Shown: positions 3,837 through 63,736 of the stretch, one piece after another
How the letters are laid out: each line of letters starts with the position of its first letter
Position numbering within the stretch: the first letter of the stretch is position 1
From: an uncultured Aquitalea sp.
Lineage (GTDB): Bacteria; Pseudomonadota; Gammaproteobacteria; Burkholderiales; Chromobacteriaceae
DNA length: 64,000 nucleotides
Direction: 5' to 3'
NCBI RefSeq assembly: GCF_945957525.1
Contig: NZ_CAMFLA010000012.1
Coordinates: 62,001-126,000 of the forward strand
Notes under the pieces: generated by a model
Databases searched by the model: none
Told to the model about the DNA's origin: nothing
What the model saw: only the letters and a program-made list of their open reading frames with translations
Position numbers and translations under genes: made by a program

Positions 3837-3848
3837 GGTTGGCCGAAG
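3837..3848 (+). repeat. intergenic copy of the GGTTGGCCGAAG word
   Basis: Exact 12-mer between convergent genes, one of twelve copies in the window (see findings). Confidence 0.8.
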
Positions 3849-3860
3849 GCGCGGGTCTCT

Positions 3861-3967
3861 GGCGGTTTACAACCCCTTGATGCTGCGTTGCGGCGCTTCG
3901 CCGCGCTTTGGGTACAGCCTGCGTCGGCGCGCCTTGCCCCAAGCGTAAAACTGATTTTGTTAGCCGC
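3861..3967 (+). repeat. dispersed intergenic element, copy A (MITE/REP-like)
   Basis: A 107-bp element sharing with three other intergenic sites the core GCTGCGTTGCG...GCCTGCGTCGGCGCGCCTTG and imperfect inverted ends (left GGCGGTTTACAACCCC, right TGATTTTGTTAGCCGC). It sits in the tail-to-tail gap between the NTF2-like gene and the small membrane protein gene. Confidence 0.75.
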
Positions 3968-4010
3968 GCTTATTGCGCAGGCGCTTATTGCGCAGGCGCT
4001 TGTTGCGCCT
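3966..4010. repeat. 15-bp tandem repeat, three units
   Basis: GCGCTTATTGCGCAG at 3966-3980 and 3981-3995, then a degenerate third unit to 4010. Read on the minus strand the units encode APAQ plus a TAA stop, so the stop of the small membrane protein gene is repeated 15 bases further on. The repeat begins at the right end of intergenic element A. Confidence 0.8.
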
Positions 4011-4299
4011 GCAGCTGGCGCTGGGTATCAATCACTTTCTGGATGGTGATGCCGCTGGCCAGGGTGAAGAACTTGTCCCAGCTGTCGTGCTTGTCGTGCG
4101 TGTACAGCTTGATGTCCTGGCGTTCTTCCGGGGTCAGCAACACCAGGGATGCCATTTTCCAATTTTGCGAGGTGTTCATTTTGGCGATATCCATGGCCAG
4201 CAAGGTGTGGCGGGCGCGAGCTCCGCTCCAGACGCCAATGGCCAGCAGGGCCAGGATGATAATCAGCGGCTTGCGCCAGCGGGATTGGGTATTGCTCAT
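3985..4299 (-). CDS. small membrane-anchored protein of unknown function
   Basis: A 104-residue protein with one N-terminal membrane helix (PLIIILALLAIGVWSGA, about 11-27) after a short basic cytoplasmic start, and a periplasmic tail containing LTPEERQDIKLYTHDKHDSWDKFFTLASGITIQKVIDTQRQL. I do not recognise the family. The C-terminus (QAQQAPAQ) is encoded by 15-bp tandem units, one of which also carries the stop codon. It lies beside another small exported protein gene on the same strand. Confidence 0.65.
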   Translation of the reverse strand: MSNTQSRWRKPLIIILALLAIGVWSGARARHTLLAMDIAKMNTSQNWKMASLVLLTPEERQDIKLYTHDKHDSWDKFFTLASGITIQKVIDTQRQLQAQQAPAQ

Positions 4300-4370
4300 G
4301 ATTGCCCTCGTTGTCTGTTTTCTTGATTTTCCGGTCGCATGGATTGCGGCCGGGTGGTTGCCGACGCTGC

Positions 4371-4598
4371 TCAGCAGCCCTTGTCGTCAAGATGCTTGTT
4401 CTTGGCGCGGCGCGCAAGGCCGATGGCGATGGGACTTTTATCCAGCGCCCGGCCAGCGGCCTGGTTTTGCAGGACGCGCTTGCCGCGTTGCGGTTCTTCG
4501 GTTTTCTTGCAGTCCACCGGCGCGCTGGCGGTATTGGCCAGTGTTGTTTGGCTTGGTAAAAGTAGGCAGGCAAGCAGACAAGCGACAGCGGCGCGCAT
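4371..4598 (-). CDS. small exported protein of unknown function
   Basis: A 75-residue protein with a signal peptide (MRAAVACLLACLLLPSQTTL, cleavage near ANTASA) and a short basic, polar mature part with two cysteines (DCKKTEEP near the start, KGC at the end). The start is chosen because AGGAT lies just upstream of this ATG; a start five codons earlier (MPRIL) is possible. I do not recognise the family. It is followed on the same strand by the small membrane protein gene, about 70 bases away, and the two may be cotranscribed. Confidence 0.6.
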   Translation of the reverse strand: MRAAVACLLACLLLPSQTTLANTASAPVDCKKTEEPQRGKRVLQNQAAGRALDKSPIAIGLARRAKNKHLDDKGC

Positions 4599-4874
4599 GA
4601 GTATCCTCGGCATCGTTTTGGTGGATTTGCATGACAGTGAATCATGCGGTCGCACATGATTCCATTGTCAGGCAATTATCTCAAGTGCCTATTTATTAAA
4701 ATATGTCAAGCGATCGGCGAATAATACTGAATAGGACGAACTGGCGGGTTGGGCGAAAGAAACGGTTTGGCAATGTTGGCGGTGAATAAGGCGAAGGCGG
4801 GGTGTGCCGATGAGAGGCAAACTGTCTGAACGGGCGATGGCTGCGGGAGGCGGCTGTCGCCCGGCCTGGCGGGT

Positions 4875-5456
4875 TTAATTGGCGATATAGAACACGCCCA
4901 GGCCAAGGGCTGCTCCGGCGGGCAAGTCGATAAGGTAGTGCTGCTTGGTAAACGCGCAGCTTAGCGCGATCAGGATGGGAAACAGCAGGCCCCACAAACC
5001 GACATAAGGCATGGCGTACATGGCGGTCAGCATGGCGACGGAGGTATGCATGCTGGGGAAGCAATTGGAGGACTTATCGTATTTCTGTACAAAGCGCAGG
5101 AATCTTACGGAAAGGCCATCCCGTTTCCCGTGATCGCGCCAGTGGGTGGGCGTTTCCACCGGAAGGAGCACAAAGAACACCATTTGCAATAGCAACAGCA
5201 GAATGAACGAGGCCGCCATGTAAGTGAATTCCCGGCTGTCGGAGACCAGCAGGTTCAGATAAATGATCGCTGGATAGTATAGAAAGCTGTAGATCCAGAC
5301 CCACCATGGCTGAAAAGGAATCGCTTCATCGATGGGGGAGTGGTAGCGGCGGGTTTTCACCCATGTGCGGCGCTGGCACCAGAAATAGAACTGATAACAA
5401 CCCACAATCAAAATAATGGACAGCAAAATATTGATGCAGTAATCGGTAAAAGTCAT
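4875..5456 (-). CDS. PAP2-family membrane phosphatase
   Basis: A 193-residue multi-pass membrane protein with about five hydrophobic spans. It carries the PAP2 acid-phosphatase motifs as SSNCFPSMHTS (PSMH at 134-137) and, after one span, FTKQHYLIDLPAG (catalytic His at about 173); the first KX6RP motif is replaced by a looser KRDGL..RFLRF region. Such proteins dephosphorylate lipid phosphates (phosphatidate, undecaprenyl diphosphate) or transfer inositol-phosphate groups at the membrane; which one cannot be told here. GC is lower than in its neighbours. It is transcribed alone, divergent from the small membrane protein gene at 5596. Confidence 0.85.
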   Translation of the reverse strand: MTFTDYCINILLSIILIVGCYQFYFWCQRRTWVKTRRYHSPIDEAIPFQPWWVWIYSFLYYPAIIYLNLLVSDSREFTYMAASFILLLLLQMVFFVLLPVETPTHWRDHGKRDGLSVRFLRFVQKYDKSSNCFPSMHTSVAMLTAMYAMPYVGLWGLLFPILIALSCAFTKQHYLIDLPAGAALGLGVFYIAN

Positions 5457-5934: not shown

Positions 5935-5949
5935 CTTGCTGCGGCCAGT

Positions 5950-5977: not shown

Positions 5978-6000
5978 TGAGGGGAGTTGGCCAGAGGAAA

Positions 6001-7434
6001 TCAGGCCGCCAAATACGCTGTTTTCACCGTGGTGTAGAACTCGCGCGCATAGCGTCCTTGCTCGCGCGGCCCGAAACTGGAGCCTTTGCGGCCGCCAAAG
6101 GGCACGTGATAGTCCACACCGGCGGTAGGCAGGTTCACCATCACCATGCCGGCTTCGGCATGGCGGCGGAAGTGGCTGGCCAGCGATAGCGAACGGGTGC
6201 AGATGCCGGCGGCGAGGCCGAACTCGGTGTCATTGGCCAGCGCCAGCGCATGCGGGTAGTCGTCCGCGCGCTGTATTACCGCTACCGGGCCGAAGATTTC
6301 CTCGCGCACGATGCGGTGTGTCGATAAGCCTTCGGCAAACAAGGCGGGTTGCAAGTAGTAGCCGCGATATCGGGTTTCAACCACTTGGCCGCCGGCCACC
6401 AGCACGGCGCCTTCCTGCTGTCCGATGGCGATGTAGTCCAGGTTCTTGCGCAACTGCTCTTCGCTGGCCAGCGGGCCGATCTGCGTGTCCGGGCTGGTGG
6501 CGTGTCCCACGCGCAGGCTGGCGCAGCGGGCTGCCAGCGCCTCGACGAAATGGTCGTGGACGCCGGCGCAGACCACCAGCCGGCTGCTGGCCGTACAGCG
6601 CTGGCCCGTAGAGTAGAAGGCGCCGTTGACGGCGCATTCCACCGCTTGCGCGAGATCAGCGTCGTCGGCTACCACCAGCGGGTTCTTGCCGCCCATTTCC
6701 AGTTGCACGCGGATACCGCGCACCGCGCACTCCCGCGCCAGTTGGCGGCCGGTAGGGACGGAACCGGTAAAACTGAGGGCGTCTATGCCGGCGTCCAGCA
6801 TGGCCGGGCCCAGCACGCGGCCCGGTCCGGTCACCAGATTGAACACGCCGTCCGGCAATCCGGCGCGCTTGAGAATATCGGCCAGTGCCCAGGCCGAGCC
6901 GGGCACCAGCTCGGCCGGCTTCAGCACCACCGTATTGCCAAAGGCCAGCGCCGGCGCGCTTTTCCAGGCGGGAATGGCGATGGGGAAGTTCCAGGGCGTG
7001 ATCAGACCCACCACGCCCACCGGCTCCCGCTCCACCAGCACCTCTACGCCGGGCCGCACCGAGGCCAGCACATCGCCCTCCTGCCGCAAGGCTTCGCCAG
7101 CAAAGAACTTGAAGATCTGGCCGGCCCGGCTCACTTCCGCCACCGCTTCCGGCAGGGTCTTGCCTTCCTCGCGGGCCAGCAGCAGGCCCAGTTCGCTGCG
7201 CCGCGCCAGTATCTCGCTGCCGGCGGCGTCCAGCACATCTGATCGCTGTTGCGGCGTACTGGCCCGCCAGCGGGGCAGCGCCGCGCGGGCGGCGGCCACC
7301 GCCTCGCGCATGTCTTCCTCGCCGGCTTCGGCGTACTCGCCCACCAGATCGCCCAGATCGGACGGATTTCGGTTGGGGCACAGCCGCAATCCGTCACGCC
7401 ATTGACCACCAATCAGCAAGGGATAGCGCTGCAT
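6001..7434 (-). CDS. 2-oxoglutarate semialdehyde dehydrogenase (hydroxyproline pathway)
   Basis: An NAD(P)-dependent aldehyde dehydrogenase of 477 residues, the standard family length. Catalytic residues are the Glu in QLEMGGKNP (about 246) and the nucleophilic Cys in FYSTGQRCTASS (about 280); the Asn in TPWNFP (about 149) completes the oxyanion site. In context it is the last step of trans-4-hydroxyproline breakdown, oxidising 2-oxoglutarate semialdehyde to 2-oxoglutarate. It starts two bases after the stop of the deaminase gene, so both are one operon. A longer frame upstream is open but would run into the deaminase gene. ALDH family is certain; substrate is from context. Confidence 0.9.
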   Translation of the reverse strand: MQRYPLLIGGQWRDGLRLCPNRNPSDLGDLVGEYAEAGEEDMREAVAAARAALPRWRASTPQQRSDVLDAAGSEILARRSELGLLLAREEGKTLPEAVAEVSRAGQIFKFFAGEALRQEGDVLASVRPGVEVLVEREPVGVVGLITPWNFPIAIPAWKSAPALAFGNTVVLKPAELVPGSAWALADILKRAGLPDGVFNLVTGPGRVLGPAMLDAGIDALSFTGSVPTGRQLARECAVRGIRVQLEMGGKNPLVVADDADLAQAVECAVNGAFYSTGQRCTASSRLVVCAGVHDHFVEALAARCASLRVGHATSPDTQIGPLASEEQLRKNLDYIAIGQQEGAVLVAGGQVVETRYRGYYLQPALFAEGLSTHRIVREEIFGPVAVIQRADDYPHALALANDTEFGLAAGICTRSLSLASHFRRHAEAGMVMVNLPTAGVDYHVPFGGRKGSSFGPREQGRYAREFYTTVKTAYLAA

Positions 7435-7436
7435 GC

Positions 7437-8403: not shown

Positions 8404-8413
8404 GTAATCAATC

Positions 8414-9645: not shown

Positions 9646-10887
9646 ATGAAACAAGTGGTGGTGATCGGCGCGGGGGTGGTGGGCATAGCCGCCGCGCTGC
9701 AATTGCAACAGGCCGGTTGCGCAGTCACCCTGCTGGACCGGGGTGAGCCGGCCCGCGAAACCAGTTTCGGCAACGCCGGCGCGCTGGCGGTGAGCGACAT
9801 CATTCCCTTGGCCGAACCCGGCGTGCTGAAAAAAGTGCCCGGCTGGATGCTGGACCCGCTGGGCCCGCTGGCCATGCGCTGGCGCTATTTGCCCAGTCTT
9901 GCCCCTTGGTTGCTGCGTTTTGTCGCCGCCAGCCGGCCTTCTCGGGTAAGGGCGCTGACCGAAGCGCTGTCCGCGTTGTTGTCGCGGGTGAACCGCGATA
10001 CCGAACCGCTGGCCGACCTGGCCGGCCTCAACGGCATCTGGCGACGGCATGGCTCGCTGACCCTGTATCGCGATGTAGCGGAGTATAGGTTGGCCGAAGA
10101 GGCGTGGCGGGAAAAGCGCCGCCACGGCGTGGCCTGGGAGCTGCTGAACGGCGAGGCCGTGCGTGATGCAGACGCCGCCCTGCTGCCGGGTTGGGAGTGC
10201 GCGGTGAAGGTGCGCGACTGGTCGCATGTGGACGACCCCTGGCTGTTTGCCGTGGGTCTGTTTGACGCTTTTCGCCGTCTGGGCGGGCAGTTTGTGCGGG
10301 CAGAGGCATCGTCCCTGCGCGAACGCGGCGGACGGGTGGACGGGGTTGAGCTGCAGAATGGCGGCGCGCTGGACGCCGACGAGGTGGTGGTGGCTTGCGG
10401 CGTGTGGAGCGACCGCTTTTTCAAGCCCATGGGCTGTCGCGTGCCGTTGGAAAGCGAGCGCGGTTATCACGTCACCCTGCCGAAGGCGGGCGTGTCATTG
10501 CGCCACTTTTTGCAATGCGCCAGCGAAAGCTTCGTCATTTTGCCGATGGCCAATGGCGGCCTGCGACTGGCCGGCACTGTGGAGCTGGCGCATCGCGACG
10601 CGCCCCCGGACTGGCGGCGCGCGCACATTCTGATCGACAAGGCGCGTGCCATCGTCGGCGATTTTTCCACCGAGGACATGAGCGTGTGGATGGGCAACCG
10701 CCCCTCGGTGCCGGACACCGTGCCGGTAATCGGCCCTTCGCCCCGTCATGCCGGGCTGTGGTTCGCTACCGGCCATGGCCATCTCGGCCTGACGCTGGCG
10801 GCCACTACTGGCGCTTTATTGGCGGACGCCATGCTGGGGCGAGAGCCCGGCATCGATATGCGGCCGTATCGGGTAGACCGTTTCTGA
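9646..10887 (+). CDS. D-hydroxyproline dehydrogenase (FAD, DadA-like)
   Basis: A 413-residue FAD-dependent oxidoreductase of the DAO/DadA family. The N-terminal dinucleotide-binding motif VVVIGAGVVGIAAALQL (4-20) is followed by ETSFGNAGAL, typical of DadA-like enzymes, and by the C-terminal FAD contact GLWFATGHGHLGLT. By context it oxidises cis-4-hydroxy-D-proline to 1-pyrroline-4-hydroxy-2-carboxylate, probably passing electrons to the respiratory chain. It sits six bases after the epimerase gene and 100 bases before the binding-protein gene. A D-amino-acid dehydrogenase of wider specificity is the alternative. Confidence 0.88.
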   Translation: MKQVVVIGAGVVGIAAALQLQQAGCAVTLLDRGEPARETSFGNAGALAVSDIIPLAEPGVLKKVPGWMLDPLGPLAMRWRYLPSLAPWLLRFVAASRPSRVRALTEALSALLSRVNRDTEPLADLAGLNGIWRRHGSLTLYRDVAEYRLAEEAWREKRRHGVAWELLNGEAVRDADAALLPGWECAVKVRDWSHVDDPWLFAVGLFDAFRRLGGQFVRAEASSLRERGGRVDGVELQNGGALDADEVVVACGVWSDRFFKPMGCRVPLESERGYHVTLPKAGVSLRHFLQCASESFVILPMANGGLRLAGTVELAHRDAPPDWRRAHILIDKARAIVGDFSTEDMSVWMGNRPSVPDTVPVIGPSPRHAGLWFATGHGHLGLTLAATTGALLADAMLGREPGIDMRPYRVDRF

Positions 10888-12207: not shown

Positions 12208-13227
12208 ATGCACACAGCCTTGTCCTGGCCTGAGGTGCTGGACGTGGTGGACATGCATACCGGCGGTGAGCCGGTGCGCATCGTCCGCAAGCTGGAAGGG
12301 TTGGCCGAAGGCGGGGATATCCTCGCCAAACGGCGGCATTTTGCCGAACGGCATGATGATGTGCGCCGCTTGCTGATGTATGAACCGCGCGGCCACGCCG
12401 ACATGTACGGCGCGGTGCTGGTAGCGCCGAGCTTGCCGGGCGCGGATCTGGCGGTGCTGTTCATCCACAACGAAGGCTACAGCACCATGTGCGGACACGC
12501 TGTTATCGCGCTGGGCCGTTACGCGGTGGATTACGGCCTGGTGCCGGCCAGCGGGCCTTTGACCCGGGTGGGCATCGAATGTCCGTGCGGGCTGGTCGAG
12601 GCTTGGGTAGAAATACAGGATGGCCGCAGCGGCAGGGTGTTTTTTGATAGCGTGCCGGCCTTCGCGTTGGCGCTGGATGTGGCGGTGACGCTGCCGGAGG
12701 CGGGCGCATTGACCGTGGATGTGGGTTATGGCGGCGCGTTTTACGCGTTGGCGCCGGCTGTCGCGCTGGGCGTTAGCCTGGACGGCCCGGTGGCGGCACT
12801 GAAAGCGGCTGCCGGCCGGCTGAGCGAGGCCGTTCGGCAAACCTTGCCCATTCGTCATCCGCTGCATGAGGATCTCGGCTTCTTGTACGGCAGCATTCTC
12901 AGCGATGGCCGCGAGCGGGCGGCGGATGGCGCGAGCAGCAATGTGTGCGTGTTTGCCGATGCCGAGGTGGACCGCAGCCCCACCGGCTCCGGTGTTACCG
13001 CCCGCATGGCGGTGCGCTACGCGCGCGGCCGGGTGGCCTTGGGAGAGCGCTGTGTGTTTCGCAGCCTCACCGGGGCGGAATTCAGCGCGGAGGTACGCCG
13101 GGAGGTGGATCTTGCCGGCCTGCCGGCGGTGGTGGTGCGGGTGGGCGGGCAGGCGCATTACAGCGGCGAAGCCCGGTTCTGGCTGGAGGAGGGCGACGAG
13201 ATCGGCCGGGGCTTCCTCTTGCGCTGA
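12208..13227 (+). CDS. trans-3-hydroxy-L-proline dehydratase
   Basis: A second proline-racemase-family protein, 339 residues. The first catalytic position is Cys95 (YSTMCGHAVI) but the second is Thr259 (DRSPTGSGVTAR) instead of Cys. In this family the Cys/Thr pair is the hallmark of trans-3-hydroxy-L-proline dehydratases, which yield 1-pyrroline-2-carboxylate. That product would need a pyrroline-2-carboxylate reductase to reach L-proline; none is in the window. The gene follows the binding-protein gene after a terminator, with GGGGAGA before its start. The pair of paralogues lets the cell use both hydroxyproline isomers found in collagen. Confidence 0.9.
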   Translation: MHTALSWPEVLDVVDMHTGGEPVRIVRKLEGLAEGGDILAKRRHFAERHDDVRRLLMYEPRGHADMYGAVLVAPSLPGADLAVLFIHNEGYSTMCGHAVIALGRYAVDYGLVPASGPLTRVGIECPCGLVEAWVEIQDGRSGRVFFDSVPAFALALDVAVTLPEAGALTVDVGYGGAFYALAPAVALGVSLDGPVAALKAAAGRLSEAVRQTLPIRHPLHEDLGFLYGSILSDGRERAADGASSNVCVFADAEVDRSPTGSGVTARMAVRYARGRVALGERCVFRSLTGAEFSAEVRREVDLAGLPAVVVRVGGQAHYSGEARFWLEEGDEIGRGFLLR

Positions 13228-17165: not shown

Positions 17166-18081
17166 GCGCTCTTTTCCTCTCCCTTATACCCACCAGGCGC
17201 TGCGCGACCTGGCTTTCCTCCTGTTGTCGCCGCCGCCCTGGCGCACTGGGAGGGATCTTTCTTCGGCCAACCTTCTCGGGCCGGACGGCCTCGGCCTCTT
17301 GGCTGCGCTGGAAGATGATCCAACCCCCTTGTCGCACTGGTTGGGGCCGACGCAAACCGGCGAGCGACTGGGCCGCTACGCCGAGCGTTTGCTGGCCTTC
17401 TGGTTCCGGCTGGCGCCCCATATCGAGACGGTGGCGGTCAATCTGCCGGTGCGCAACGCCGCCTTGCGCACCATTGGCGAGTTCGATTTCCTCATTCGGC
17501 TTGATGGCCGCCCGCTGCACGTGGAAACCGCCAGCAAGTTCTATCTGCAACTGGGCCATGGCCCAGATACTCTGATCGGCCCCAGCTTGCGCGACGCCTG
17601 GCGTCTGAAGGCCGCCAAACTGCAAGAGCAGTTGCGGCTGGCGCGCCATGCCGTGGCGCAGACGGTGCTGCCTGCCGATTTTCGGCAATGCGACAGCGCG
17701 GCCCGCGTGGCGGGCTGGTTCTTCTACGCTCCGGGTGCAGGGCCGCAACCGCCTTTGGCCGAGGAGCAACTCACCGGTTGGTATGCGCCGCTGACCGCGC
17801 CCTGGCCCCGGCAGGCGCAAGGCTCGCGCTGGGTATGGCTGTCGCGGCTGGGGTGGTTGTCGCCGGCGCGAGTGACCGAGGCGGCAACACGGGAAGAAGA
17901 CAGCTTGCGCCGCGAGTTATTGCAATCCGCCGTACCGCAACTGGTGGCCGAATTACTGCCAGTGGGCGATGGCCATTGGGAAGAAATCTCGCGCGGTTTC
18001 GTCATTCCACCGGGCTGGCCGCAAGAAGAGCGGCTGACGGCCCTGCTCGATGAAGTGGGGCGGCTGGGAGCCGCATCGTGA
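17143..18081 (+). CDS. DUF1853 family protein
   Basis: A 312-residue soluble protein that I place in DUF1853 from the pattern YTHQALRDLAFLLLSPP at the N-terminus and GEFDFLIRLDGRPLHVETASKFYL in the middle. The latter resembles a PD-(D/E)xK nuclease core (E..D, then hVEtASKFY), so a nuclease-like fold is possible but not shown. It overlaps trmJ by 23 bases and its stop overlaps the next start (GTGA), so three genes are cotranscribed. Function unknown; linkage to an RNA modification enzyme is the only hint. Confidence 0.8.
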   Translation: MDATSRAERSFPLPYTHQALRDLAFLLLSPPPWRTGRDLSSANLLGPDGLGLLAALEDDPTPLSHWLGPTQTGERLGRYAERLLAFWFRLAPHIETVAVNLPVRNAALRTIGEFDFLIRLDGRPLHVETASKFYLQLGHGPDTLIGPSLRDAWRLKAAKLQEQLRLARHAVAQTVLPADFRQCDSAARVAGWFFYAPGAGPQPPLAEEQLTGWYAPLTAPWPRQAQGSRWVWLSRLGWLSPARVTEAATREEDSLRRELLQSAVPQLVAELLPVGDGHWEEISRGFVIPPGWPQEERLTALLDEVGRLGAAS

Positions 18082-20938: not shown

Positions 20939-21179
20939 CTTTGAAATGTGATGGTTTTTTACAACACATTGACGGAGTGTGACCACGCCCGGAGGGGGGA
21001 CGCCGTCGGGGACAAGGTTGGCCGAAGGAAATTTTACCTGTTGAGAGTAGGGAAATTTCTTAACCCTGCGCCGCAGCATGCTATAGCAAAAAGGTGACCG
21101 CCACCGGACAAGGTGATTTAAATCGCCGCCCATTTGAAGAGCGGTCGCTTGGAAGAGCCAAATCCCAGGGAGAGCGGTC
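20939..21179. other. gap between hemN terminator and chemoreceptor gene
   Basis: No gene seen. It holds one exact GGTTGGCCGAAG word and presumably the chemoreceptor promoter; I could not identify a convincing sigma-28 or sigma-70 promoter. Confidence 0.6.
21016..21027 (+). repeat. intergenic copy of the GGTTGGCCGAAG word
   Basis: Exact 12-mer upstream of the chemoreceptor gene. Confidence 0.8.
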
Positions 21180-24915: not shown

Positions 24916-25063
24916 GCTTGCTCCTGCAAGAGGGGTCTTCGGCAAACCCGTGCCGTGCGTCTGGGCAAGGGCAGACAGGCCGCACGCAAGCCCGGTACTG
25001 GGCTGCGGGTTCGGGGATCTCTTTACGATGTGGCGATGCCTTGTTGAAAGCGGCTGCCAATAC

Positions 25064-42724: not shown

Positions 42725-43467
42725 AAGTAGCGGTACTGGTGGCGCCGGCCGCCCACCCGGTCAGTGGTCGGCCCTGTGCCGGCGAGGCGGAACTGGCGGC
42801 CTTGGCGCTGGCCGGCGGTTTGTCCACCGAGCTGACGGTGCTCTATGCCGGCGCGGCGGAGGACGCCGCCCTGGCGGACTATCTGGCGCAAGGCGCGGCG
42901 GCGGTGCGCGTGCTGGCGGTAGAGGCTGGGCAGGACATCCTGCCGGCGCTGATCGAGGCGGTGAAAGACCACGATCTGATCTTGTGCGGTGGGCGCGCCG
43001 GCAACGGCGCAGGCAGCGGCATGCTGCCCTACCTGTTGGCCGAAGCGCTGGAGCGTCCCTTGCTGCCGGACGCCATGGCGCTGGAAGTGTGCGGCAAGGA
43101 GCTGCGCATTACCCAGGGGCTGGCCAAAGGCGTGCGCCGCACGCTGTCCGCCGCGTTGCCTCTGGTGTCGTCTGTAGACAAGCGCGCCGCCAGCGCCGGC
43201 GGTTGGTCTTACGCCGCGCTGAGGCAGGGGGCCATCCGCCGTCAGCAGGCGGCCGGGCCGGCCTTCGCCCAACCGCGTCGCGAGCCAGCCCGCCGGGCTC
43301 GCGCGCTGGTGGCGGCCAGCCGCGCCAGCGGTCACGACCGCATGCTGGGAGCCATTGCCGGCAGCGACGGCAAGCAGTCCGGGCGCGTCGTAAAACAGGG
43401 TGATCCTGTCGAAAAAGCGCAAGTTGTACTGGAGTACCTCAGGCACCATCAGCTCGTCGATTTCTGA
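42721..43467 (+). CDS. etfB: electron transfer flavoprotein beta subunit (betaine-linked)
   Basis: A 248-residue ETF beta-like protein: MKVAVLVAPAAHPVSGRP at the start, GEAELAALALAGG, and LCGGRAGNGAGSGMLPYLLAEAL, corresponding to the AMP-binding region. The C-terminus is more diverged than in housekeeping EtfB. ATGA overlap with the alpha subunit gene. It ends 89 bases before gbcA. Confidence 0.82.
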   Translation: MKVAVLVAPAAHPVSGRPCAGEAELAALALAGGLSTELTVLYAGAAEDAALADYLAQGAAAVRVLAVEAGQDILPALIEAVKDHDLILCGGRAGNGAGSGMLPYLLAEALERPLLPDAMALEVCGKELRITQGLAKGVRRTLSAALPLVSSVDKRAASAGGWSYAALRQGAIRRQQAAGPAFAQPRREPARRARALVAASRASGHDRMLGAIAGSDGKQSGRVVKQGDPVEKAQVVLEYLRHHQLVDF

Positions 43468-44851: not shown

Positions 44852-44863
44852 CTTCGGCCAACC
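44852..44863 (-). repeat. intergenic copy of the GGTTGGCCGAAG word
   Basis: Exact 12-mer on the minus strand, forming the left part of the gbcA-gbcB hairpin. Confidence 0.8.
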
Positions 44864-48877: not shown

Positions 48878-49864
48878 ATGAGCCCGCAAAACATCGCAGA
48901 GTTGTCGCATATAGGTTTCCTGTTGCTGGACAAGTTTTCCATGATCGCGTTTTCCAACGCGGTGGAACCCTTGCGCATGGCCAATTATCTGTCGCGCAAG
49001 AAGCTGTACCGCTGGAGTCTCTTGTCCGCTGACGGCAATCCGGTGCCCGCCAGCAACGGGCTGGAGCTGTCGCCCATCACTGCGCCGGAAAGCCCGCAAA
49101 ACTACGACATGCTGATTGTTTGCGGCGGCTGGCAGGTGCGCGAAGCGGTGGACGACAAGGTGCTGGCTGTCATCCGTCGTTTTGCCGCGCAAGGCGTGCC
49201 GCTTGGCGCCATCTGCACCGGCACGTTCGCGCTGGCCAAGGCTGGCGTGGTGAATGGCTATCGTTGCGCCATTCACTGGGAAAACCTGCTGTCCATCAGC
49301 GAGGAGTTTCCCAAGACGCAGTTCACCTCTGATCTGTTTGTGTTGGACCGCGACCGCTTCACCTGTAGCGGCGGCACGGCCCCGCTGGATTTTATGTGCC
49401 ACCTGATCCGCCACAAGGGCGGCAAGAGCCTGGCGGCCGACGTGTCCGAGCAGTTCATCGTCGATCGCCTGCGCGACAACGGCGATCGTCAGCATATCCC
49501 CTTGCTGGCGCGCATCGGCACCGGCCATGAAACGCTGGTGGACGCCGCGCTGGCGATGGAAGGCAATATCGAGAATCCGCGCTCGCTGGAAGAGTTGGCC
49601 GAAGAGTTGGGCGTGTCCCTGCGTCATCTGGAGCGCCTGTTCAAACGCTATCTCAACACCACGCCGGCGCAGTACTACCTGGATTTGCGCCTGCGGCGCG
49701 CGCGCGAACTGCTGCTGCAAACCAATATGAGCGTGATGGAAGTCACCGTGGCCTGTGGTTTCCTCTCCTCCTCGCATTTTTCCAAATCGTATCGCGGCCT
49801 GTTTGGCTACCCGCCCAGCCGCGAACGCCAGCAGTATCTGGTGGACAGCGCGGTGATCGCCTGA
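48878..49864 (+). CDS. GlxA/AraC-type regulator, GbdR-like
   Basis: A 328-residue regulator with an N-terminal DJ-1/PfpI-like domain (1-185; nucleophile-elbow-like AICTGTFALAKAG) and a C-terminal AraC-type double helix-turn-helix (LEELAEELGVSLRHLERLFKRYLNTTPAQYY, split, then ACGFLSSSHFSKSYRGLFGYPPS). This architecture is that of GbdR, CdhR and ArgR-type activators. Between choVW and choX it is the best candidate for the betaine/dimethylglycine-responsive activator of the whole block. The ligand is inferred. A terminator follows at 50013. Confidence 0.9.
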   Translation: MSPQNIAELSHIGFLLLDKFSMIAFSNAVEPLRMANYLSRKKLYRWSLLSADGNPVPASNGLELSPITAPESPQNYDMLIVCGGWQVREAVDDKVLAVIRRFAAQGVPLGAICTGTFALAKAGVVNGYRCAIHWENLLSISEEFPKTQFTSDLFVLDRDRFTCSGGTAPLDFMCHLIRHKGGKSLAADVSEQFIVDRLRDNGDRQHIPLLARIGTGHETLVDAALAMEGNIENPRSLEELAEELGVSLRHLERLFKRYLNTTPAQYYLDLRLRRARELLLQTNMSVMEVTVACGFLSSSHFSKSYRGLFGYPPSRERQQYLVDSAVIA

Positions 49865-53522: not shown

Positions 53523-55075
53523 CTGTCTACATTCCCATGGATTCCGTCGCCTGCGCCGTGGGCGCGGACGACGTCGCGCAAAGGTTTGCCGAAGAGGCGG
53601 CGCGGCGCGGCATGGCGCTGGATATCCGCCGCACCAGTTCGCGCGGCCTGTTCTGGCTGGAGCCGCTGGTGGAGGTGGACACCCCGCACGGGCGGGCAGG
53701 TTTTCGCACGGTGACGCCGGAGGATGTGTCCGGCCTGCTGGCCATCGACATGGCCGCCGTGCGGGATCACCTTTTGTCCATCGGGCTGGTGGATGAACTG
53801 CCCTACCTGAAGAGCCAGCAGCGCTTGTTGTTTGCCCGCGCCGGCCTTACCCGGCCCTTGTCGCTGGATGATTATCTGGCCGCCGGAGGGTATCAGGGGC
53901 TGGAGAAAGCGGCCGCCATGAGCGGCGACGACATCGTCGCCAATGTCCTGGATTCCGGCCTGCGCGGCCGGGGCGGCGCGGCCTTTCCCGCCGGCATCAA
54001 ATGGCGCACCGTGCGTCAGGCCGGTGCGGACAGCAAATACGTGGTGTGCAACGCTGACGAAGGCGACTCCGGCAGTTTTGCCGACCGCATGTTGATGGAG
54101 GGCGACCCCTTCCTGTTGCTGGAAGGCATGACCATCGCCGGGCTGGCGGTGGGGGCCACCCGGGGCTACATCTATGTGCGCTCCGAATACGCGCCGGCCA
54201 TCGCCGTGCTGCGCCAGGCCATCGTCATTGCCCGGGAACACGGTTATCTCGGCGACAACGTGGCCCACGGCGGCCACGATTTCGATATCGAAGTGCGCGA
54301 AGGCGCGGGGGCCTACATCTGCGGCGAGGAAACCTCGTTGCTGGAATCACTGGAAGGCAAGCGCGGCACGGTGCGGGCCAAGCCGCCGCTGCCGGCGTTG
54401 CAGGGCCTCTTCGGCCAACCTACGCTGGTGCACAACGTATTGTCGCTGGCCTCCGTGCCGCTGATCCTGGCGCGCGGGGCGGCTTGGTATCGCAATTTCG
54501 GCATGGGCAGATCGCTGGGCACCATGGCCTTTCAGCTGGCCGGCAATGTGCGGCGCGGCGGCTTGGTGGAGCGGGCCTTCGGCCTGACCTTGCGCGAGCT
54601 GGTGCTGGATTACGGCGGCGGTACCGCCAGCGGCCGTCCGCTGAAGGCGGTGCAGCTGGGCGGCCCGCTGGGCGCCTGGATTCCGCCCTCCCTGCTGGAC
54701 ACCCCGCTGGATTACGAAGCACTGGCCGCCATTGGCGCCATGCTGGGGCACGGCGGCGCGGTGCTGGCGGACGATACGGTGGACATGGGGCGCATGGCGC
54801 GCTTCGCCATGCGGTTTTGCGCCATAGAGTCCTGCGGCAAGTGCACGCCCTGTCGCATCGGCTCCACGCGCGGCGTGGAAGTGATAGACCGCTTGCTGGC
54901 GGCTGGCAACGCCGAGGAGAAATCCCGGCAACATGCTTTGCTGGATGACCTCTGCCTCACCATGCAACATGGCTCGCTCTGCGCGCTGGGCGGCATGACG
55001 CCCTTTCCGGTGCAAAGCGCCCTCAAGTACTTTCCCGCCGATTTCGGCCTGACTTCCCAGGAGAACGCACAATGA
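53516..55075 (+). CDS. fdsB: NAD-dependent formate dehydrogenase beta subunit
   Basis: A 519-residue protein with an N-terminal thioredoxin-like region and a NuoF-like core: NADH/FMN site GLRGRGGAAFPAGIKW and CNADEGDSGSFADR, then ICGEETSLLESLEG, and the [4Fe-4S] motif ESCGKCTPCRIG near the end. It is the FMN site where NAD+ is reduced. ATG start overlaps fdsG; its stop overlaps fdsA (ATGA). Confidence 0.94.
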   Translation: MLTVYIPMDSVACAVGADDVAQRFAEEAARRGMALDIRRTSSRGLFWLEPLVEVDTPHGRAGFRTVTPEDVSGLLAIDMAAVRDHLLSIGLVDELPYLKSQQRLLFARAGLTRPLSLDDYLAAGGYQGLEKAAAMSGDDIVANVLDSGLRGRGGAAFPAGIKWRTVRQAGADSKYVVCNADEGDSGSFADRMLMEGDPFLLLEGMTIAGLAVGATRGYIYVRSEYAPAIAVLRQAIVIAREHGYLGDNVAHGGHDFDIEVREGAGAYICGEETSLLESLEGKRGTVRAKPPLPALQGLFGQPTLVHNVLSLASVPLILARGAAWYRNFGMGRSLGTMAFQLAGNVRRGGLVERAFGLTLRELVLDYGGGTASGRPLKAVQLGGPLGAWIPPSLLDTPLDYEALAAIGAMLGHGGAVLADDTVDMGRMARFAMRFCAIESCGKCTPCRIGSTRGVEVIDRLLAAGNAEEKSRQHALLDDLCLTMQHGSLCALGGMTPFPVQSALKYFPADFGLTSQENAQ

Positions 55076-57942
55076 GCTGCGCCTGTTCCTCCCGCGAGCC
55101 GGATCGCGGCACGCCGGCCCGCGCCGGCGAAGCCAGCATCACCCTCAACATTGATGGACGTGATATCAGCGTGCCGGCCGGCACCTCGGTCATGCATGCG
55201 GCCAGCCTGCTGGATACCCCCATTCCCAAGCTTTGCGCCACCGACAGCCTGGAGCCGTTTGGCTCTTGCCGCATGTGTCTGGTGGAAATCGACGGTCATC
55301 GCGGCTACCCCGCTTCCTGCACCACGCCGGTGTCGCCCGGCATGGTGGTGCGCACCCAGAGCGAAGCGCTGGCAGCACTGCGTCGCGGCGTGATGGAGCT
55401 GTACATCTCCGATCATCCGCTGGACTGCCTCACCTGTTCGGCCAACGGCAATTGCGAGCTGCAAACCGTGGCCGGGCAAGTGGGCTTGCGCGAGGTGCGC
55501 TACGGCTTTGAAGGCGAGGGGCACTTGCAGGAAACCAAGGATTGCTCCAATCCGTATTTCGATTACGACCCCTCCAAGTGCATTGTCTGCAACCGCTGCG
55601 TGCGCGCTTGTGAAGAGGTGCAGGGCACGTTTGCGCTGACCATCGCCGGCCGGGGCTTCGAGTCCCGCGTCAGAGCGGCGGGCGGGCCGGATTTTCTCGG
55701 TTCGGAATGCGTGTCTTGCGGCGCATGCGTTGATGCCTGCCCCACTGCTACGCTGATGGAAAAGAGCGTCATCCAGTGGGGTCAGCCGGATCGCAGCGTC
55801 ACCACCACCTGCGCTTATTGCGGCGTGGGCTGCTCGTTCAAGGCGGAAGTGAAGGGCAACCGCGTAGTACGCATGGCGCCGGACAAGAACGGCCAGGCCA
55901 ACCACGGCCACGCCTGCGTCAAGGGTCGCTTCGCCTGGGGCTACGCCAGCCACCCGGACCGCATCACCAAACCCATGATCCGCAAGAGCATCCAGGACCC
56001 GTGGCGCGAAGTGAGTTGGGAAGAAGCGCTGGCTTACGCCGCCGGAGAGTTCCGCCGACTGCAGCAACAGTACGGCCGCGAGGCGGTGGGCGGCATCACC
56101 TCCAGCCGCTGTACCAATGAAGAAACCTATCTGGTGCAGAAGCTGGTGCGCGCCGCTTTCGGCAACAACAATGTGGACACCTGCGCCCGCGTTTGCCATT
56201 CGCCCACTGGTTATGGTCTCAAGCAAACGCTGGGCGAATCGGCCGGCACGCAAAGTTTCGATTCCGTGATGCAAGCCGATGTAATCATGGTGGTGGGCGC
56301 CAACCCCACCGATGCGCATCCCGTGTTCGGCTCGCGCCTGCGCCGCCGTTTGCGCGAGGGGGCCAGCCTGATCGTGGTGGACCCGCGCCGCATCGACCTG
56401 GTGGACACCCCACATGGCCGCGCCAGCCATCATCTGGCGCTGCGCCCTGGCACCAACGTGGCCATGCTCAACGCGCTGGCCCACGTCATTGTCAGCGAAG
56501 GGCTGGTGGACGAAACCTTCGTCGCCGAACGTTGCGAAGCGGAGGCTTTCCGTCGCTGGCGTGATTTTGTCGCCCAGCCGGCGCAGTCGCCGGAAGCCGT
56601 CGCCGGGGTGTGCGGCGTGGCGGCGGAAGACATCCGCGCCGCCGCCCGCTTGTACGCCAATGCCGGCAACGCCGCCATCTATTACGGTCTGGGCGTTACC
56701 GAGCATAGCCAGGGCAGCACGGCGGTGATGGCCATCGCCAATCTCGCCATGGCCACCGGCAATATCGGTCGCGAGGGCGTGGGGGTGAACCCCCTGCGCG
56801 GGCAGAACAACGTGCAGGGCTCCTGCGATATGGGTTCCTTCCCGCACGAACTGCCGGGCTACCGCCATGTCTCGGACGGTAGCGTGCGCGGTCTGTTCGA
56901 GTCGGCCTGGGGCGTGGCCTTGCAGGCCGAGCCGGGGCTGCGCATTCCCAATATGTTCGAAGCGGCGCTGGACGGCAGCTTCAAGGGCCTGTACTGCCAG
57001 GGCGAGGACATCGCCCAGAGCGACCCCAACACCCAGCATGTCACTGCCGCCCTGTCCGCCATGGAGTGCGTGGTGGTACAGGACATCTTCCTCAATGAAA
57101 CCGCCCGTTTTGCCCATGTGTTCCTGCCCGGCAGCTCCTTCCTGGAGAAGGATGGCACCTTCACCAATGCCGAGCGCCGCATCTCCCGCGTCCGCAAGGT
57201 GATGGAGCCGCTGGGCGGCAAGGCGGATTGGGAAGTCACCATCGCTCTGGCCGAAGCACTGGGCTACGCCATGCCGTATCGCCACCCGTCCGACATCATG
57301 GACGAGATCGCCCGGCTCACGCCCAGCTTCCACGGCGTCAGCTATCGCAAGCTGGACCAGCATGGCAGCCTGCAATGGCCCTGCAACGACAGCGCGCCGG
57401 AGGGCACCGTCACCATGCACGTTGACCGCTTCGTGCGCGGCGAAGGGCATTTCATGGTAACCCGCTATGTGCCGACCGAGGAAAAGGTCAATGCGCGTTA
57501 CCCGCTGATCCTGACTACCGGCCGCATTCTCAGTCAGTACAACGTCGGCGCGCAGACTCGCCGCACCGACAATGTGGCCTGGCATGAAGAGGACCGGCTG
57601 GAGATCCATCCCAGCGACGCAGAACAACGCGGCATCGCCGATGGCGACTGGGTGGGCGTGGCCAGCCGCTCTGGCGATACCGTGCTGCGCGCTCGCGTCA
57701 GCGAACGCATGGCGCCGGGCGTGGTGTACACCACGTTCCACTTTCCGGAATCCGGTGCCAACGTCATCACCACCGACAACTCCGACTGGGCGACCAACTG
57801 CCCGGAATACAAAGTGACGGCGGTGGAAGTGCTGCGTGTCAACGAGCCTTCCGTGTGGCAGCAACGCTATCGCGAATTCAGCAGCCAGCAACAGGCGCTG
57901 TTGGCCGAAAGGCGGCGGGCGGAAAAGGAGACCGGTCGATGA
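55072..57942 (+). CDS. fdsA: NAD-dependent formate dehydrogenase alpha (molybdenum) subunit
   Basis: A 956-residue catalytic subunit. The N-terminal 240 residues carry a NuoG-like [2Fe-2S] (GSCRMCLVE) and several [4Fe-4S] motifs (CIVCNRCVRACEE; CVSCGACVDACP). From CAYCGVGCSF the bis-molybdopterin guanine dinucleotide domain begins, with its own cluster. The molybdenum ligand is Cys375 (ARVCHSPTGYG), not selenocysteine. It oxidises formate to CO2. ATGA coupling on both sides. Formate comes from FdhA and PurU, so the complex ends the methyl-oxidation route with NADH gain. Confidence 0.95.
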   Translation: MSCACSSREPDRGTPARAGEASITLNIDGRDISVPAGTSVMHAASLLDTPIPKLCATDSLEPFGSCRMCLVEIDGHRGYPASCTTPVSPGMVVRTQSEALAALRRGVMELYISDHPLDCLTCSANGNCELQTVAGQVGLREVRYGFEGEGHLQETKDCSNPYFDYDPSKCIVCNRCVRACEEVQGTFALTIAGRGFESRVRAAGGPDFLGSECVSCGACVDACPTATLMEKSVIQWGQPDRSVTTTCAYCGVGCSFKAEVKGNRVVRMAPDKNGQANHGHACVKGRFAWGYASHPDRITKPMIRKSIQDPWREVSWEEALAYAAGEFRRLQQQYGREAVGGITSSRCTNEETYLVQKLVRAAFGNNNVDTCARVCHSPTGYGLKQTLGESAGTQSFDSVMQADVIMVVGANPTDAHPVFGSRLRRRLREGASLIVVDPRRIDLVDTPHGRASHHLALRPGTNVAMLNALAHVIVSEGLVDETFVAERCEAEAFRRWRDFVAQPAQSPEAVAGVCGVAAEDIRAAARLYANAGNAAIYYGLGVTEHSQGSTAVMAIANLAMATGNIGREGVGVNPLRGQNNVQGSCDMGSFPHELPGYRHVSDGSVRGLFESAWGVALQAEPGLRIPNMFEAALDGSFKGLYCQGEDIAQSDPNTQHVTAALSAMECVVVQDIFLNETARFAHVFLPGSSFLEKDGTFTNAERRISRVRKVMEPLGGKADWEVTIALAEALGYAMPYRHPSDIMDEIARLTPSFHGVSYRKLDQHGSLQWPCNDSAPEGTVTMHVDRFVRGEGHFMVTRYVPTEEKVNARYPLILTTGRILSQYNVGAQTRRTDNVAWHEEDRLEIHPSDAEQRGIADGDWVGVASRSGDTVLRARVSERMAPGVVYTTFHFPESGANVITTDNSDWATNCPEYKVTAVEVLRVNEPSVWQQRYREFSSQQQALLAERRRAEKETGR

Positions 57943-59056: not shown

Positions 59057-59677
59057 TCAGCCTTCCGCTTCGGCTTCGGCCAACCATTGCTGCATGGCCG
59101 GCAGCGCGCGCAGGTGGGCGGCGTAGCGGGCGGACAGCGCCGGCAGCGCCACATGATAGGTATGGAAACGCCAGACCACCGGCGCGAAGAAGGCATCGGC
59201 GATGCTGAACTCGCCAAACAGGAAGGGGCCTTGCGTCTGGTTGCGTTCCAGCTGGTGTTCCCACAAATCAACGATGCGCTCGATATCGGCCAGCGCCGCA
59301 TCGGACAATGGCTTGCCCGGCAGGCTGGCGGTGACGTTCATTGGCAGCTCCTGGCGCAGGGCGGTGAAGCTAGAGTGCATTTCCGCCACCATGGAGCGGG
59401 CTTCGGCGCGCTGCGCGGCATCAAGCGGCCACAGCTTGCCGGGAAAACAGTCGGCCAGGTATTCGCAGATGGCGAGGCTGTCCCACACCGCCAATTGGCG
59501 GTCGCGCAGGAAAGGCACTTTGCCGGCCGGGTTGTAGGCAAGGATTTGCTGCTTGCTGTCGGCGCGACCCAGCGGGATGAGCACTTCTTCAAACGGCTCG
59601 CCCAGCATTTTCAGGGCGAGCCAGGGGCGCAGCGACCAGGAGGAAAGATTCTTGCTGCCAATGACAAGGGTAAACAT
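59057..59677 (-). CDS. glutathione S-transferase family protein
   Basis: A 206-residue GST. N-terminal thioredoxin-like domain LVIGSKNLSSWSLRPWLALK with Ser residues at the glutathione site and NPAGKVPFL..WDSLAICEYLAD; C-terminal helical domain ending QWLAEAEAEG. GGAG precedes MFTLVIG. The group resembles cytoplasmic GSTs that act on maleyl or stress-derived substrates; substrate unknown. The C-terminal Leu-Ala-Glu codons form one copy of the GGTTGGCCGAAG word. Confidence 0.88.
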   Translation of the reverse strand: MFTLVIGSKNLSSWSLRPWLALKMLGEPFEEVLIPLGRADSKQQILAYNPAGKVPFLRDRQLAVWDSLAICEYLADCFPGKLWPLDAAQRAEARSMVAEMHSSFTALRQELPMNVTASLPGKPLSDAALADIERIVDLWEHQLERNQTQGPFLFGEFSIADAFFAPVVWRFHTYHVALPALSARYAAHLRALPAMQQWLAEAEAEG

Positions 59678-60454: not shown

Positions 60455-60463
60455 GAAAAATCC

Positions 60464-62323
<1,860 letters not shown>

Positions 62324-62360
62324 GACTCGTCTTTATTGTTGTGGAGGGTAAACGGCGCGC

Positions 62361-62894
62361 TCAGCCCAGCAGGCTTTCGATGGCGTCGCCGATCTCCTGT
62401 TCCAGTTTTTCCAGAAAGCGCAATTTTCTCACCAGAAGCGCGGCGGCGTCCAAGTCCGGGGCCGTATCCAGCGCGACGGCCAGTTCGGCAACCCGCTCGC
62501 GCATCTCGTCGCGCAAACGGGCGGACAGCGCATCCAGCGCTTCCACCTCGCCGCTGTCGCGGGCGTCTTCGATGCTTTCGCGCCACTCCATTTGCGCCAT
62601 GAGGAAGTCCGCCGGCATGCTGGTATTGGTTTCTTCGCCGGTATCCACGCCTTGCAGCGACAGCAGGTAACGGCCGCGATTCACTGGGTTCTTGAGGGTC
62701 TGGTAGGCCTCGTTGACGCGCGTGGCCATCATCAGCGCCACGCGTTTTTCCGCTTCGGGGCGGCTGGCGTGACGATCGGGATGCACTTCGGCGGCGGCGG
62801 TGCGCCAGGCGTGGTCAAGACGCTCGGTATCCAGCGCGAAAGCGCGCGGCAGGCCCAGCAGGGAGAAGAAATCCTGAGTGAAGTCGGTTGTCAT
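62361..62894 (-). CDS. hscB: J-domain co-chaperone HscB
   Basis: A 177-residue J-protein. The J-domain has HPD at 38-40 (AAEVHPDRHAS), and the C-terminal three-helix domain binds IscU (MQMEWRE-like run MAQMEWRESIEDA). The start MTTDFTQDFF gives the family length; a longer open frame is not supported. Confidence 0.94.
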   Translation of the reverse strand: MTTDFTQDFFSLLGLPRAFALDTERLDHAWRTAAAEVHPDRHASRPEAEKRVALMMATRVNEAYQTLKNPVNRGRYLLSLQGVDTGEETNTSMPADFLMAQMEWRESIEDARDSGEVEALDALSARLRDEMRERVAELAVALDTAPDLDAAALLVRKLRFLEKLEQEIGDAIESLLG

Positions 62895-62966
62895 CAGCGA
62901 AAAGGCGGGCGCAAGTGCGAGTGGGAATGGTCGGCAACCAGATAGCGGCAGCCGACCCGGCAAGGA

Positions 62967-63290
62967 TCAGACGTTGAAGCTCTCGCCGCAACCGCACTCG
63001 TTCTTCACATTGGGATTGTTGAACTTGAAGCCTTCGTTCAAGCCTTCCTTGGTGTAGTCGAGTTCGGTGCCGTCGATGTAGGCCAGGCTCTTGGCATCGG
63101 TAAACACCTTGACGCCATGGCTTTCGAAGGCGATGTCTTCATCGTTGGCGACATCGACGAATTCCAGCTTGTAAGCCATGCCGGAACAGCCCGAGGTCTT
63201 GACGCCCAGGCGAATGCCGAGGCCCTTGCCGCGTTTGCTGATGAACTGGCTAACGTGGCGCGCTGCGGTTTCGGAAAGCGTGATGGCCAT
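62967..63290 (-). CDS. iscA: A-type Fe-S carrier IscA
   Basis: A 107-residue A-type carrier with the three conserved cysteines: one in [14 protein letters not shown] and two in NECGCGESF at the end. It carries iron or clusters to target proteins. Nine bases after iscU. Confidence 0.95.
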
Positions 63291-63299
63291 GATGCGTCC

Positions 63300-63683
63300 T
63301 TACTTGCCGTGTTTTTGCTTGTAGTCTGTCACTGCGGCCTTGATGGCGTCTTCGGCCAGGATGGAGCAGTGGATTTTCACCGGCGGCAGCGCCAGTTCTT
63401 CGGCGATGGCGGTGTTCTTGATGGACAGCGCTTCGTCCAGCGACTTGCCCTTCACCCATTCAGTCACCAGCGAAGACGATGCGATGGCGGAACCGCAGCC
63501 ATAGGTTTTGAACTTGGCGTCTTCGATCACGCCGTCGGCGTTGACCTTGATCTGCAGTTTCATCACGTCGCCGCAGGCCGGGGCGCCCACCATGCCGGTG
63601 CCCACGCTGTCGTCGCCCTTGTCGAAGGAACCCACGTTGCGGGGGTTCTCGTAGTGATCCATTACCTTGTCGCTGTATGCCAT
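63300..63683 (-). CDS. iscU: Fe-S cluster scaffold IscU
   Basis: A 127-residue scaffold. Cluster ligands C37 (APACGDVM, with Asp39), C63 (YGCGSAIASS) and C106 (KIHCSILAED) are all present, as is the HscA-recognition motif LPPVK just before C106. Standard position after iscS. Confidence 0.97.
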   Translation of the reverse strand: MAYSDKVMDHYENPRNVGSFDKGDDSVGTGMVGAPACGDVMKLQIKVNADGVIEDAKFKTYGCGSAIASSSLVTEWVKGKSLDEALSIKNTAIAEELALPPVKIHCSILAEDAIKAAVTDYKQKHGK

Positions 63684-63724
63684 GTTTTCTCTCCTGCCGC
63701 TCCGGCCGCCCCGCTATCGTTCAG

Positions 63725-63736
63725 GGTTGGCCGAAG
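63725..63736 (+). repeat. intergenic copy of the GGTTGGCCGAAG word
   Basis: Exact 12-mer in the 66-base gap between iscS and iscU. Confidence 0.8.

Follow-up and report, generated by a model that had tools for sequence, protein, structure and literature searches.

What does a short word repeated on both strands of a 64,000-nt stretch of an uncultured Aquitalea sp. do there? The stretch (assembly GCF_945957525.1, contig NZ_CAMFLA010000012.1, positions 62,001–126,000 of the forward strand) is here called the window. A preliminary description of it drew attention to the 12-mer GGTTGGCCGAAG and offered three options, an uptake word, a chromosome-organising site, and a protein-binding site; comparative evidence favours the first and does not favour the other two. 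With high confidence, we read the word as a DNA uptake sequence (DUS) of the Neisseria type in a dialect of the Chromobacteriaceae, which would tag DNA for import in natural transformation and is presumably recognized by the minor pilin ComP, the DUS receptor of Neisseria. This option is preferred because the word comes in dialects sorted by genus, each dialect genome has a ComP ortholog, close copies form inverted pairs, and copies are in excess between genes. Below, the word is also followed as the 10-mer GTTGGCCGAA, the 9-mer core TTGGCCGAA, and, in the register of known DUS, the 12-mer AGGTTGGCCGAA.

The 12 exact copies of GGTTGGCCGAAG counted by eye in the preliminary description are all present, each at its position and strand; dinucleotide shuffles of the window expect 0.04, and none of 100 shuffles reached 12. 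For the core TTGGCCGAA the earlier count of 18 plus-strand copies is right, while the total of 25 with 7 on the minus strand should read 26 with 8 (shuffles expect 1.1, the largest value being 5). Among window words with at least eight copies, ranked by observed/expected under a third-order Markov model, forms of this word stand highest at lengths 9–12, with the rarer 9-mer GATTTCCTC close behind at length 9. In the whole genome (4,045,770 bases, 35 contigs), there are 515 copies of GGTTGGCCGAAG (244 and 271 by strand; the reversed word, 2) and 1368 of GTTGGCCGAA (670 and 698; reversed control, 21). In a 450-kb sample of this genome, which serves for the Markov, variant, coding-frame, and pair analyses, GTTGGCCGAA is 39-fold above the fourth-order Markov expectation (157 vs. 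4.0); the excess thus persists on the genome-wide check that the preliminary description had proposed.

The consensus over 173 sites is A-g-G-T-T-G-G-C-C-G-A-A-G, with A at −2 in 101 and G at +11 in 128 of them; upstream of −2 and past about +13 the flanks drop to near background, giving a motif of some 12–13 bp. Of the single substitutions of GTTGGCCGAA, only T at +4 is strongly enriched, yielding a second word, GTTTGCCGAA (65 vs. 4.4, 15-fold), that has 0 to 3 copies in the sampled stretches of other genomes; C at +3 (18 vs. 3.6) and C at +5 (9 vs. 1.2) are weakly enriched, and the version of the 10-mer with CTG has 5 copies against 157. Flanks near background and the scarcity of enriched single-base variants indicate a short recognition word rather than a longer repeat. 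Hundreds of identical copies might also be left by a mobile or replicating short repeat (a repetitive extragenic palindrome, a miniature inverted-repeat transposable element, or similar). However, similarity fades one or two bases beyond the 12-mer and the 450-kb sample yields no longer consensus; conserved genes such as hscA hold sense and antisense copies, and some places are common to different genera. We consider such an origin extremely unlikely, and a longer mobile repeat is rejected, since column information is near background outside about 13 bp.

Within the sample, 124 of the 157 copies of GTTGGCCGAA lie inside called genes and 33 outside, at 0.319 and 0.534 per kb, respectively. Genic copies use both orientations and all frames. 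The frame reading Leu-Ala-Glu accounts for 63 of the 124 coding copies, i.e., about half, and the core contains GGCC, hence codon or oligonucleotide bias, or restriction–modification effects around GGCC, could be thought to produce the word. Against this, the 39-fold excess is measured over a fourth-order Markov model, and there is an excess between genes. The Leu-Ala-Glu tripeptide is 2.2-fold above the amino-acid expectation (196 vs. 88), and its codon form TTG-GCC-GAA is eight times above the codon expectation (73 vs. 9.2); in the sister genome G001 the respective values are 70 vs. 51 and 1 vs. 3.0, which indicates that the word shapes the codons and not the reverse. Codon or amino-acid bias as a full explanation is refuted by these values, and GGCC-based restriction effects by the enrichment of GTTTGCCGAA, which has no GGCC; both together retain hardly any credibility. 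The preliminary description held that codon or protein preference alone is insufficient, and asked whether the enrichment would survive exclusion of Leu-Ala-Glu; it does, with 94 of the 157 copies outside that frame against 4.0 expected over all frames, and with all frames and both orientations in use.

The survey of the family covers 61 Chromobacteriaceae genomes of genera g1–g10, where named genomes were matched by identical word counts: Aquitalea aquatica to G007 (g1; backed also by identical word positions), Pseudogulbenkiania subflava to G019 (g2), and Chromobacterium amazonense to G063 (g7). Three dialects are seen, sorted by genus: GTTGGCCGAA in eight genomes, GTTGGCCGCA in 13 of 13 genomes of g5, and GTTGGCCGAG in both genomes of g4. 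The copy numbers of GTTGGCCGAA are 1368 in our genome; 1104, 893 (P. subflava), and 183 in g2; 2168 and 579 in g3; 1245 in g6; and 1851 in g10, vs. 8 to 78 in the other 53 genomes. GTTGGCCGCA has 1871 to 2895 copies in g5 and no more than 58 in any of the 48 genomes outside it; GTTGGCCGAG has 1940 and 1590 copies in g4 and no more than 165 in any of the remaining 59. All three dialects have the CCG core and differ at positions +9/+10 (AA, CA, and AG); position +10 is A in our genome and g5, and G in g4. One dialect dominates in each of 23 genomes, our genome additionally carrying GTTTGCCGAA (65 vs. 157 copies in the sample); 38 genomes (nine of g1, 19 of g7, six of g8, and four of g9) have no abundant dialect. 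No other strong word is seen in 300 kb of G001, 300 kb of G032, 80 kb of G016, and 60 kb of G017, where a rarer word could escape. Outside the family, GTTGGCCGAA has 24 copies in Bergeriella denitrificans and 4 in a Neisseria, and 24 genomes from other families of the order have 0 to 6 copies of the 12-mer. In g8, where ComP genes are divergent, GTTGGCCGAA and GTTGGCCGAG show a weak excess, with 62 and 92 copies in G024, and 45 and 85 in G033; these are perhaps decaying remnants of the system.

The closest relatives of the HscA protein encoded in the window, among the best 80 named loci, are those of A. aquatica (85%), P. subflava (82%), and C. amazonense (82%); these matches, with the named genomes tied to g1, g2, and g7, identify the host family as Chromobacteriaceae. 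A tree of HscA (50 family genomes and six outgroups) places our genome as sister to the eight included Aquitalea (SH-like approximate likelihood-ratio support 99, by a quick method), and the ComP tree agrees on this placement (support 80, with long branches). Our genome is the deepest branch of Aquitalea as defined by GTDB, and the eight sisters have no abundant word. Mapped onto the HscA tree, presence and absence of the word require at least five changes, the tree being silent on gain vs. loss; the early branching of the word-bearing g3, g4, and g5, on branches without full support, leans towards losses.

Words of our genome were also mapped onto aligned stretches of other genomes; these comparisons are not independent, as one site may count repeatedly. 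In six dialect genomes a word stands at the same place in 12 of 69 comparisons (G011, 2/14; G018, 4/12; G010, 4/14; G014, 0/12; G013, 1/9; G021, 1/8), and in P. subflava in two of six. In word-less genomes the count is 0 of 46 (G001, 0/26; A. aquatica, 0/8; C. amazonense, 0/7; G032, 0/5). Both counts set aside a coding site, L291:1342, that is common to word-less G001 and C. amazonense too and is aligned in ten of eleven sets (G032 being unchecked). The intergenic 12-mer at 63725..63736 of the window (plus strand) corresponds to GTTGGCCGAA at the same place in g10 (G018) and to GTTGGCCGCA, the local dialect, in g5 (G013); similarly, at L170:4332, in an open reading frame (ORF) matching DNA polymerase I, our genome has GTTGGCCGAA and g4 has GTTGGCCGAG. 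The 12-mer at 61251..61262 (plus strand), antisense to hscA, is common to our genome, g3 (G011), and g10 (G018). Such same-place and dialect-switched sites at orthologous loci support descent of some sites together with dialect switching.

Many copies over the sampled contigs could also be expected if a DNA translocase, RecBCD, or a nucleoid protein bound the word as a site for chromosome organisation or recombination, of the type of FtsK-orienting polar sequences (KOPS), matS, Chi, or SMC sites. Polarity along replichores was judged by the sign of GC skew, origin and terminus not being located; by this measure the word splits 95 to 62, a mild leading-strand excess that fits such a site. However, the polarity is weak, since in these stretches a KOPS-like pattern splits 46 to 11 and is more polar than the word; a strongly polar word of the KOPS or Chi kind is rejected by this comparison. 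Chromosome-organising machinery is expected to be conserved, and within g1 a single genome has the word, which is not abundant in its nine congeners. Neither inverted terminator-like pairs, nor an intergenic excess, nor dialect switching at the end of the word would be expected of such a site, which makes it very unlikely.

Close pairs were defined as 10-mers at most 40 bases apart, counting both GTTGGCCGAA and GTTTGCCGAA. In the sample from our genome, four of four are inverted, two of them with a T-run; pairs of the 12-mer on opposite strands, with starts 13–19 bases apart, occur at least five times in the genome, two of these being among the four. The g4 genome G021 has eight close pairs in 80 kb, all of them inverted and seven adjacent to a T-run in the manner of intrinsic terminators; in G011 (g3), one of five pairs is not inverted. 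In the g5 genome G013 (L121–L124), four of six close pairs in 80 kb form the abutting palindrome TGCGGCCAACGTTGGCCGCA. Such abutting pairs recall the overlapping dyads of Simonsiella muelleri described in PMC3630211. The inverted pairs beside T-runs in g4 and the higher density between genes (1.9 per kb vs. 0.42 inside genes in a genome each of g4 and g5) could point to a site where a transcription factor or another regulator binds, or to an RNA or terminator element. On the other hand, 124 of the 157 sampled copies lie inside genes in either orientation, and there are more than 1300 copies in the genome, spaced more evenly than random (coefficient of variation 0.79 vs. 0.92 simulated, with 20 of 2000 simulations as low). 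No Rfam family reaches threshold in the window, so known RNA families are rejected as a full explanation; and terminator use is already a secondary role of DUS, as stated in the part of PMC3630211 that deals with it. A regulatory or terminator element is therefore still less likely than a chromosome-organising site.

If the word is an uptake sequence, a receptor is expected. The ComP ortholog of our genome is a minor pilin of 150 amino acids (contig C9, L170:7150–7599), adjoining a PilX-like gene and near polA. Its top three matches among solved structures are the ComP entries 2m3k, 5hz7, and 2nba (E about 3e-10), aligned through TST[KR]WPxLP; the next pilin structures have E of 5e-5 or weaker, mostly from the shared N-terminus. 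Our genome has four pilins of the Pfam family ComP_DUS (PF16732); none of the three besides the ComP ortholog matches a ComP entry up to E = 1, and one of these three, the top Pfam hit (C14), matches PilE. PF16732 alone was dropped as a ComP marker, being too broad (56 of 61 genomes, many via other pilins). An ortholog of ComP is found in 23 of 23 dialect genomes (E ≤ 5e-16). The six g8 genomes have matches with E from 8e-22 to 9e-9, and the four of g9 only weak pilin matches, with E of 8e-8 or worse. In 50 of 50 aligned ComPs the C-terminal cysteine pair is kept, and in none is the beta-1 cysteine of Neisseria ComP present; a by-eye look at the alignment reveals no column that cleanly separates word-bearing from word-less genomes. 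ComEC, DprA, and PilQ are also encoded in our genome, and their frames, as well as that of ComP, are open. With 59 of the 61 family genomes having it, ComEC does not separate word-bearing from word-less ones.

The word could then act in the following way. ComP would be the receptor reading the word; retraction of the pilus would draw DNA through PilQ, ComEC would import one strand, and DprA with homologous recombination would swap the resident allele. Word-rich DNA, being taken up more often, would let copies build up by biased gene conversion where the gene tolerates them. We infer binding of the word by ComP, competence of the strain, and a gain in uptake for DNA that carries the word.

Several observations weigh against this reading. 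CCG replaces the CTG core, which is found at +6 to +8, with A at +10, in all eight DUS dialects of the Neisseriaceae and is required in Neisseria meningitidis, as given in the relevant part of PMC3630211. Copies per base (1368 in 4.05 Mb) are lower than in Neisseria, where the same part gives about 1900 per N. meningitidis genome. ComP orthologs are also found in genomes with no abundant word, namely nine of nine other g1 and 19 of 19 g7 genomes; hence ComP alone does not predict the word. The missing beta-1 cysteine means that one conserved disulfide is predicted to be absent from these ComPs, and both ComP disulfides, one of them formed by that cysteine, are described as crucial for DUS binding in the portion of PMC12061091 concerned. 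The mild leading-strand excess is also on this side, as is the number of close pairs in our genome, hardly above chance (4 vs. 2.1 expected for the first word), only their orientation being distinctive. The largest gap between words, 14.5 kb (contig C1, 34214–48760; L152 and L153), has genes matching SecY, ribosomal protein L3, and elongation factor Tu, and is thus taken as a ribosomal-protein operon; it reflects constraint rather than exclusion from foreign DNA. Low-GC windows (<57% GC; 18 of 2.5 kb) hold 8 words, i.e., 0.18 per kb vs. 0.52 to 0.55 elsewhere; reading such word-poor stretches as imported DNA was dropped, as the largest gap is that operon. Finally, identity under our words is lower than over the whole alignments in G001 (0.689 vs. 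0.801), A. aquatica (0.767 vs. 0.811), and G011 (0.687 vs. 0.776), and about equal to the alignment at large in G010; the lower values, seen in most sets, do not fit a simple history of loss and mean that many sites were acquired or replaced once the lineages had split.

The word might also be a relic, that is, an uptake word of an ancestor in a strain that has since lost its competence or selectivity. Relatives that retain ComP and ComEC have few words or none, which would make the system easily lost, and counts are graded in g2 and g3. In our genome, however, the frames of ComP, ComEC, DprA, and PilQ are open, and the word is sharply defined, single-base variants other than GTTTGCCGAA being few; we regard a relic as unlikely. 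Returning to a functioning uptake sequence, a broader scenario would place DUS-guided transformation already in the common ancestor of the Neisseriaceae and Chromobacteriaceae, with CTG only one of at least two cores, the CCG core read by a ComP with one disulfide, dialects switching at the opposite end of the word, and several losses (crown Aquitalea, Chromobacterium, g8, g9), most keeping comP; for this scenario we see the scales as evenly balanced.

In the window itself, GTTGGCCGAA has 22 copies and GTTTGCCGAA five, placed here relative to simple gene calls by codon-position GC. Four 12-mers, the number described as intergenic, fall outside called genes (starts 3837, 21016, 44852, and 63725): besides the last, given above, these are 3837..3848 and 21016..21027 on the plus strand, and 44852..44863 on the minus strand, between gbcA-like and gbcB-like genes. 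The 12-mer lies within a gene in the sense orientation at 10088..10099, 12299..12310, and 37931..37942 (plus) and at 27507..27518 and 59074..59085 (minus), and antisense at 17261..17272 and 54409..54420 (both minus). Other copies of GTTGGCCGAA lie within genes, sense, at 74..83, 49594..49603, and 57900..57909 (plus), in soxA-family genes, sense, at 30507..30516 and 32601..32610 (plus), and in hscA, sense, at 60647..60656 (minus); at 55437..55446 (minus) the copy is within a gene, antisense. The copy at 43035..43044 (plus) is antisense to the selected gene call and sense to an overlapping ORF; those at 33484..33493 (plus) and 41789..41798 (minus) are outside selected gene calls, inside an overlapping ORF and overlapping ORFs, respectively. 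The second word GTTTGCCGAA is found at 6331..6340 (minus; outside selected gene calls), 12833..12842 (minus; within a gene, antisense), 24938..24947 (minus; spanning the 5′ end of a called gene), 33160..33169 (plus; outside selected gene calls, inside an overlapping ORF), and 53584..53593 (plus; within a gene, sense).

Positions 28059–49864 of the window hold what looks like a gene cluster for glycine betaine and sarcosine catabolism, with soxB, soxA, gbcA-like and gbcB-like genes, a betaine/choline ABC transporter, and a GbdR-like regulator. A further repeated word, GAGGAAATC, has nine window copies vs. 0.32 expected, starting at 5994, 6295, 17485, 18288, 18765, 20755, 25474, 35499, and 39259, and 25 copies in 482 kb; its cause is unexplained.

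In the literature, DUS are held to be confined to the Neisseriaceae, with an invariant CTG core, and to have evolved after the split from Chromobacterium (PMC3630211, in the part concerned). There, Frye et al. report no obvious DUS in Laribacter, Lutiella, Pseudogulbenkiania, and two Chromobacterium genomes, and no ComP by BLAST in Chromobacterium violaceum, so that the system would have arisen after that split (PMC3630211, same part). Our results disagree for the genus Pseudogulbenkiania, in that P. subflava, in a strain other than theirs, has 893 copies, and in that ComP is found in Chromobacterium (C. amazonense, E 3e-27); they agree on the lack of DUS in Chromobacterium. Table S1D of that article, which lists over-represented 10-mers of those genomes, may print the word, unnamed as DUS, to judge from the part of PMC3630211 that mentions it. 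In the open literature, with subscription journals and preprints outside the scope, no report of DUS in Chromobacteriaceae was found by title or start of abstract among the papers listed, and among the matches listed for the letters of the word none is on the subject by title. Three CCG-core dialects in the sister family, each with a ComP ortholog, provide natural receptor–word pairs far beyond the known range. How ComP reads DUS, so far an open question, can now be approached by comparison, the cause of loss of the system by comparing our genome with its Aquitalea sisters, and the change of dialect at the orthologous sites, at least two, that hold the word in two dialects.

Among known systems, KOPS, Chi, and other chromosome-polarity words are short, over-represented, genome-wide, and strongly polar; the Chromobacteriaceae word shares all of these properties except the last, being mildly polar. 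The uptake signal sequence (USS) of the Pasteurellaceae, AAGTGCGGT, is likewise a self-marking repeated word with terminator pairs, in a naturally competent family; unlike our word, to which it bears no resemblance by eye, it has downstream AT-rich parts, and its proposed receptor is ComN/PpdA (PMC12616744, in the part concerned). The closest likeness is to the DUS of the Neisseriaceae: 12 bp, both strands, hundreds to thousands of copies, dialects that track phylogeny, inverted pairs, and a ComP ortholog. The DUS-like behaviour noticed in the preliminary description is borne out, although its statement that the known dialects end in CTGAA is wrong, as king3DUS ends in CTGCA (PMC10715097, in the part concerned), and it missed the alignment of AGGTTGGCCGAA with known dialects. 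This 12-mer matches AG-mucDUS (AGGTCGTCTGAA) and AG-simDUS (AGGCTGCCTGAA) at 9 of 12 positions in the same register, with the frame AG..G.C.GAA; an equally good match to any one of the dialects (either strand, shifts up to 3) is reached by 217 of 20,000 12-mers drawn at random from the genome, so the match is suggestive, though no proof, of common descent with DUS. The differences are the CCG core, G at +5, and the host family; dialects varying at +9/+10, whereas those of the Neisseriaceae vary mainly at +2 to +5; and ComPs that, unlike that of Neisseria, keep only the C-terminal cysteine pair. Due to the core, the +9/+10 variation, and the single cysteine pair, we do not file the word as a Neisseriaceae DUS. 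Judged by its make-up, by the comparisons, and by the occurrence of a likely receptor, it probably works like a DUS and is its relative, and what is new here is most likely a dialect group of DUS type with a changed core outside the Neisseriaceae, where such signals were reported missing.

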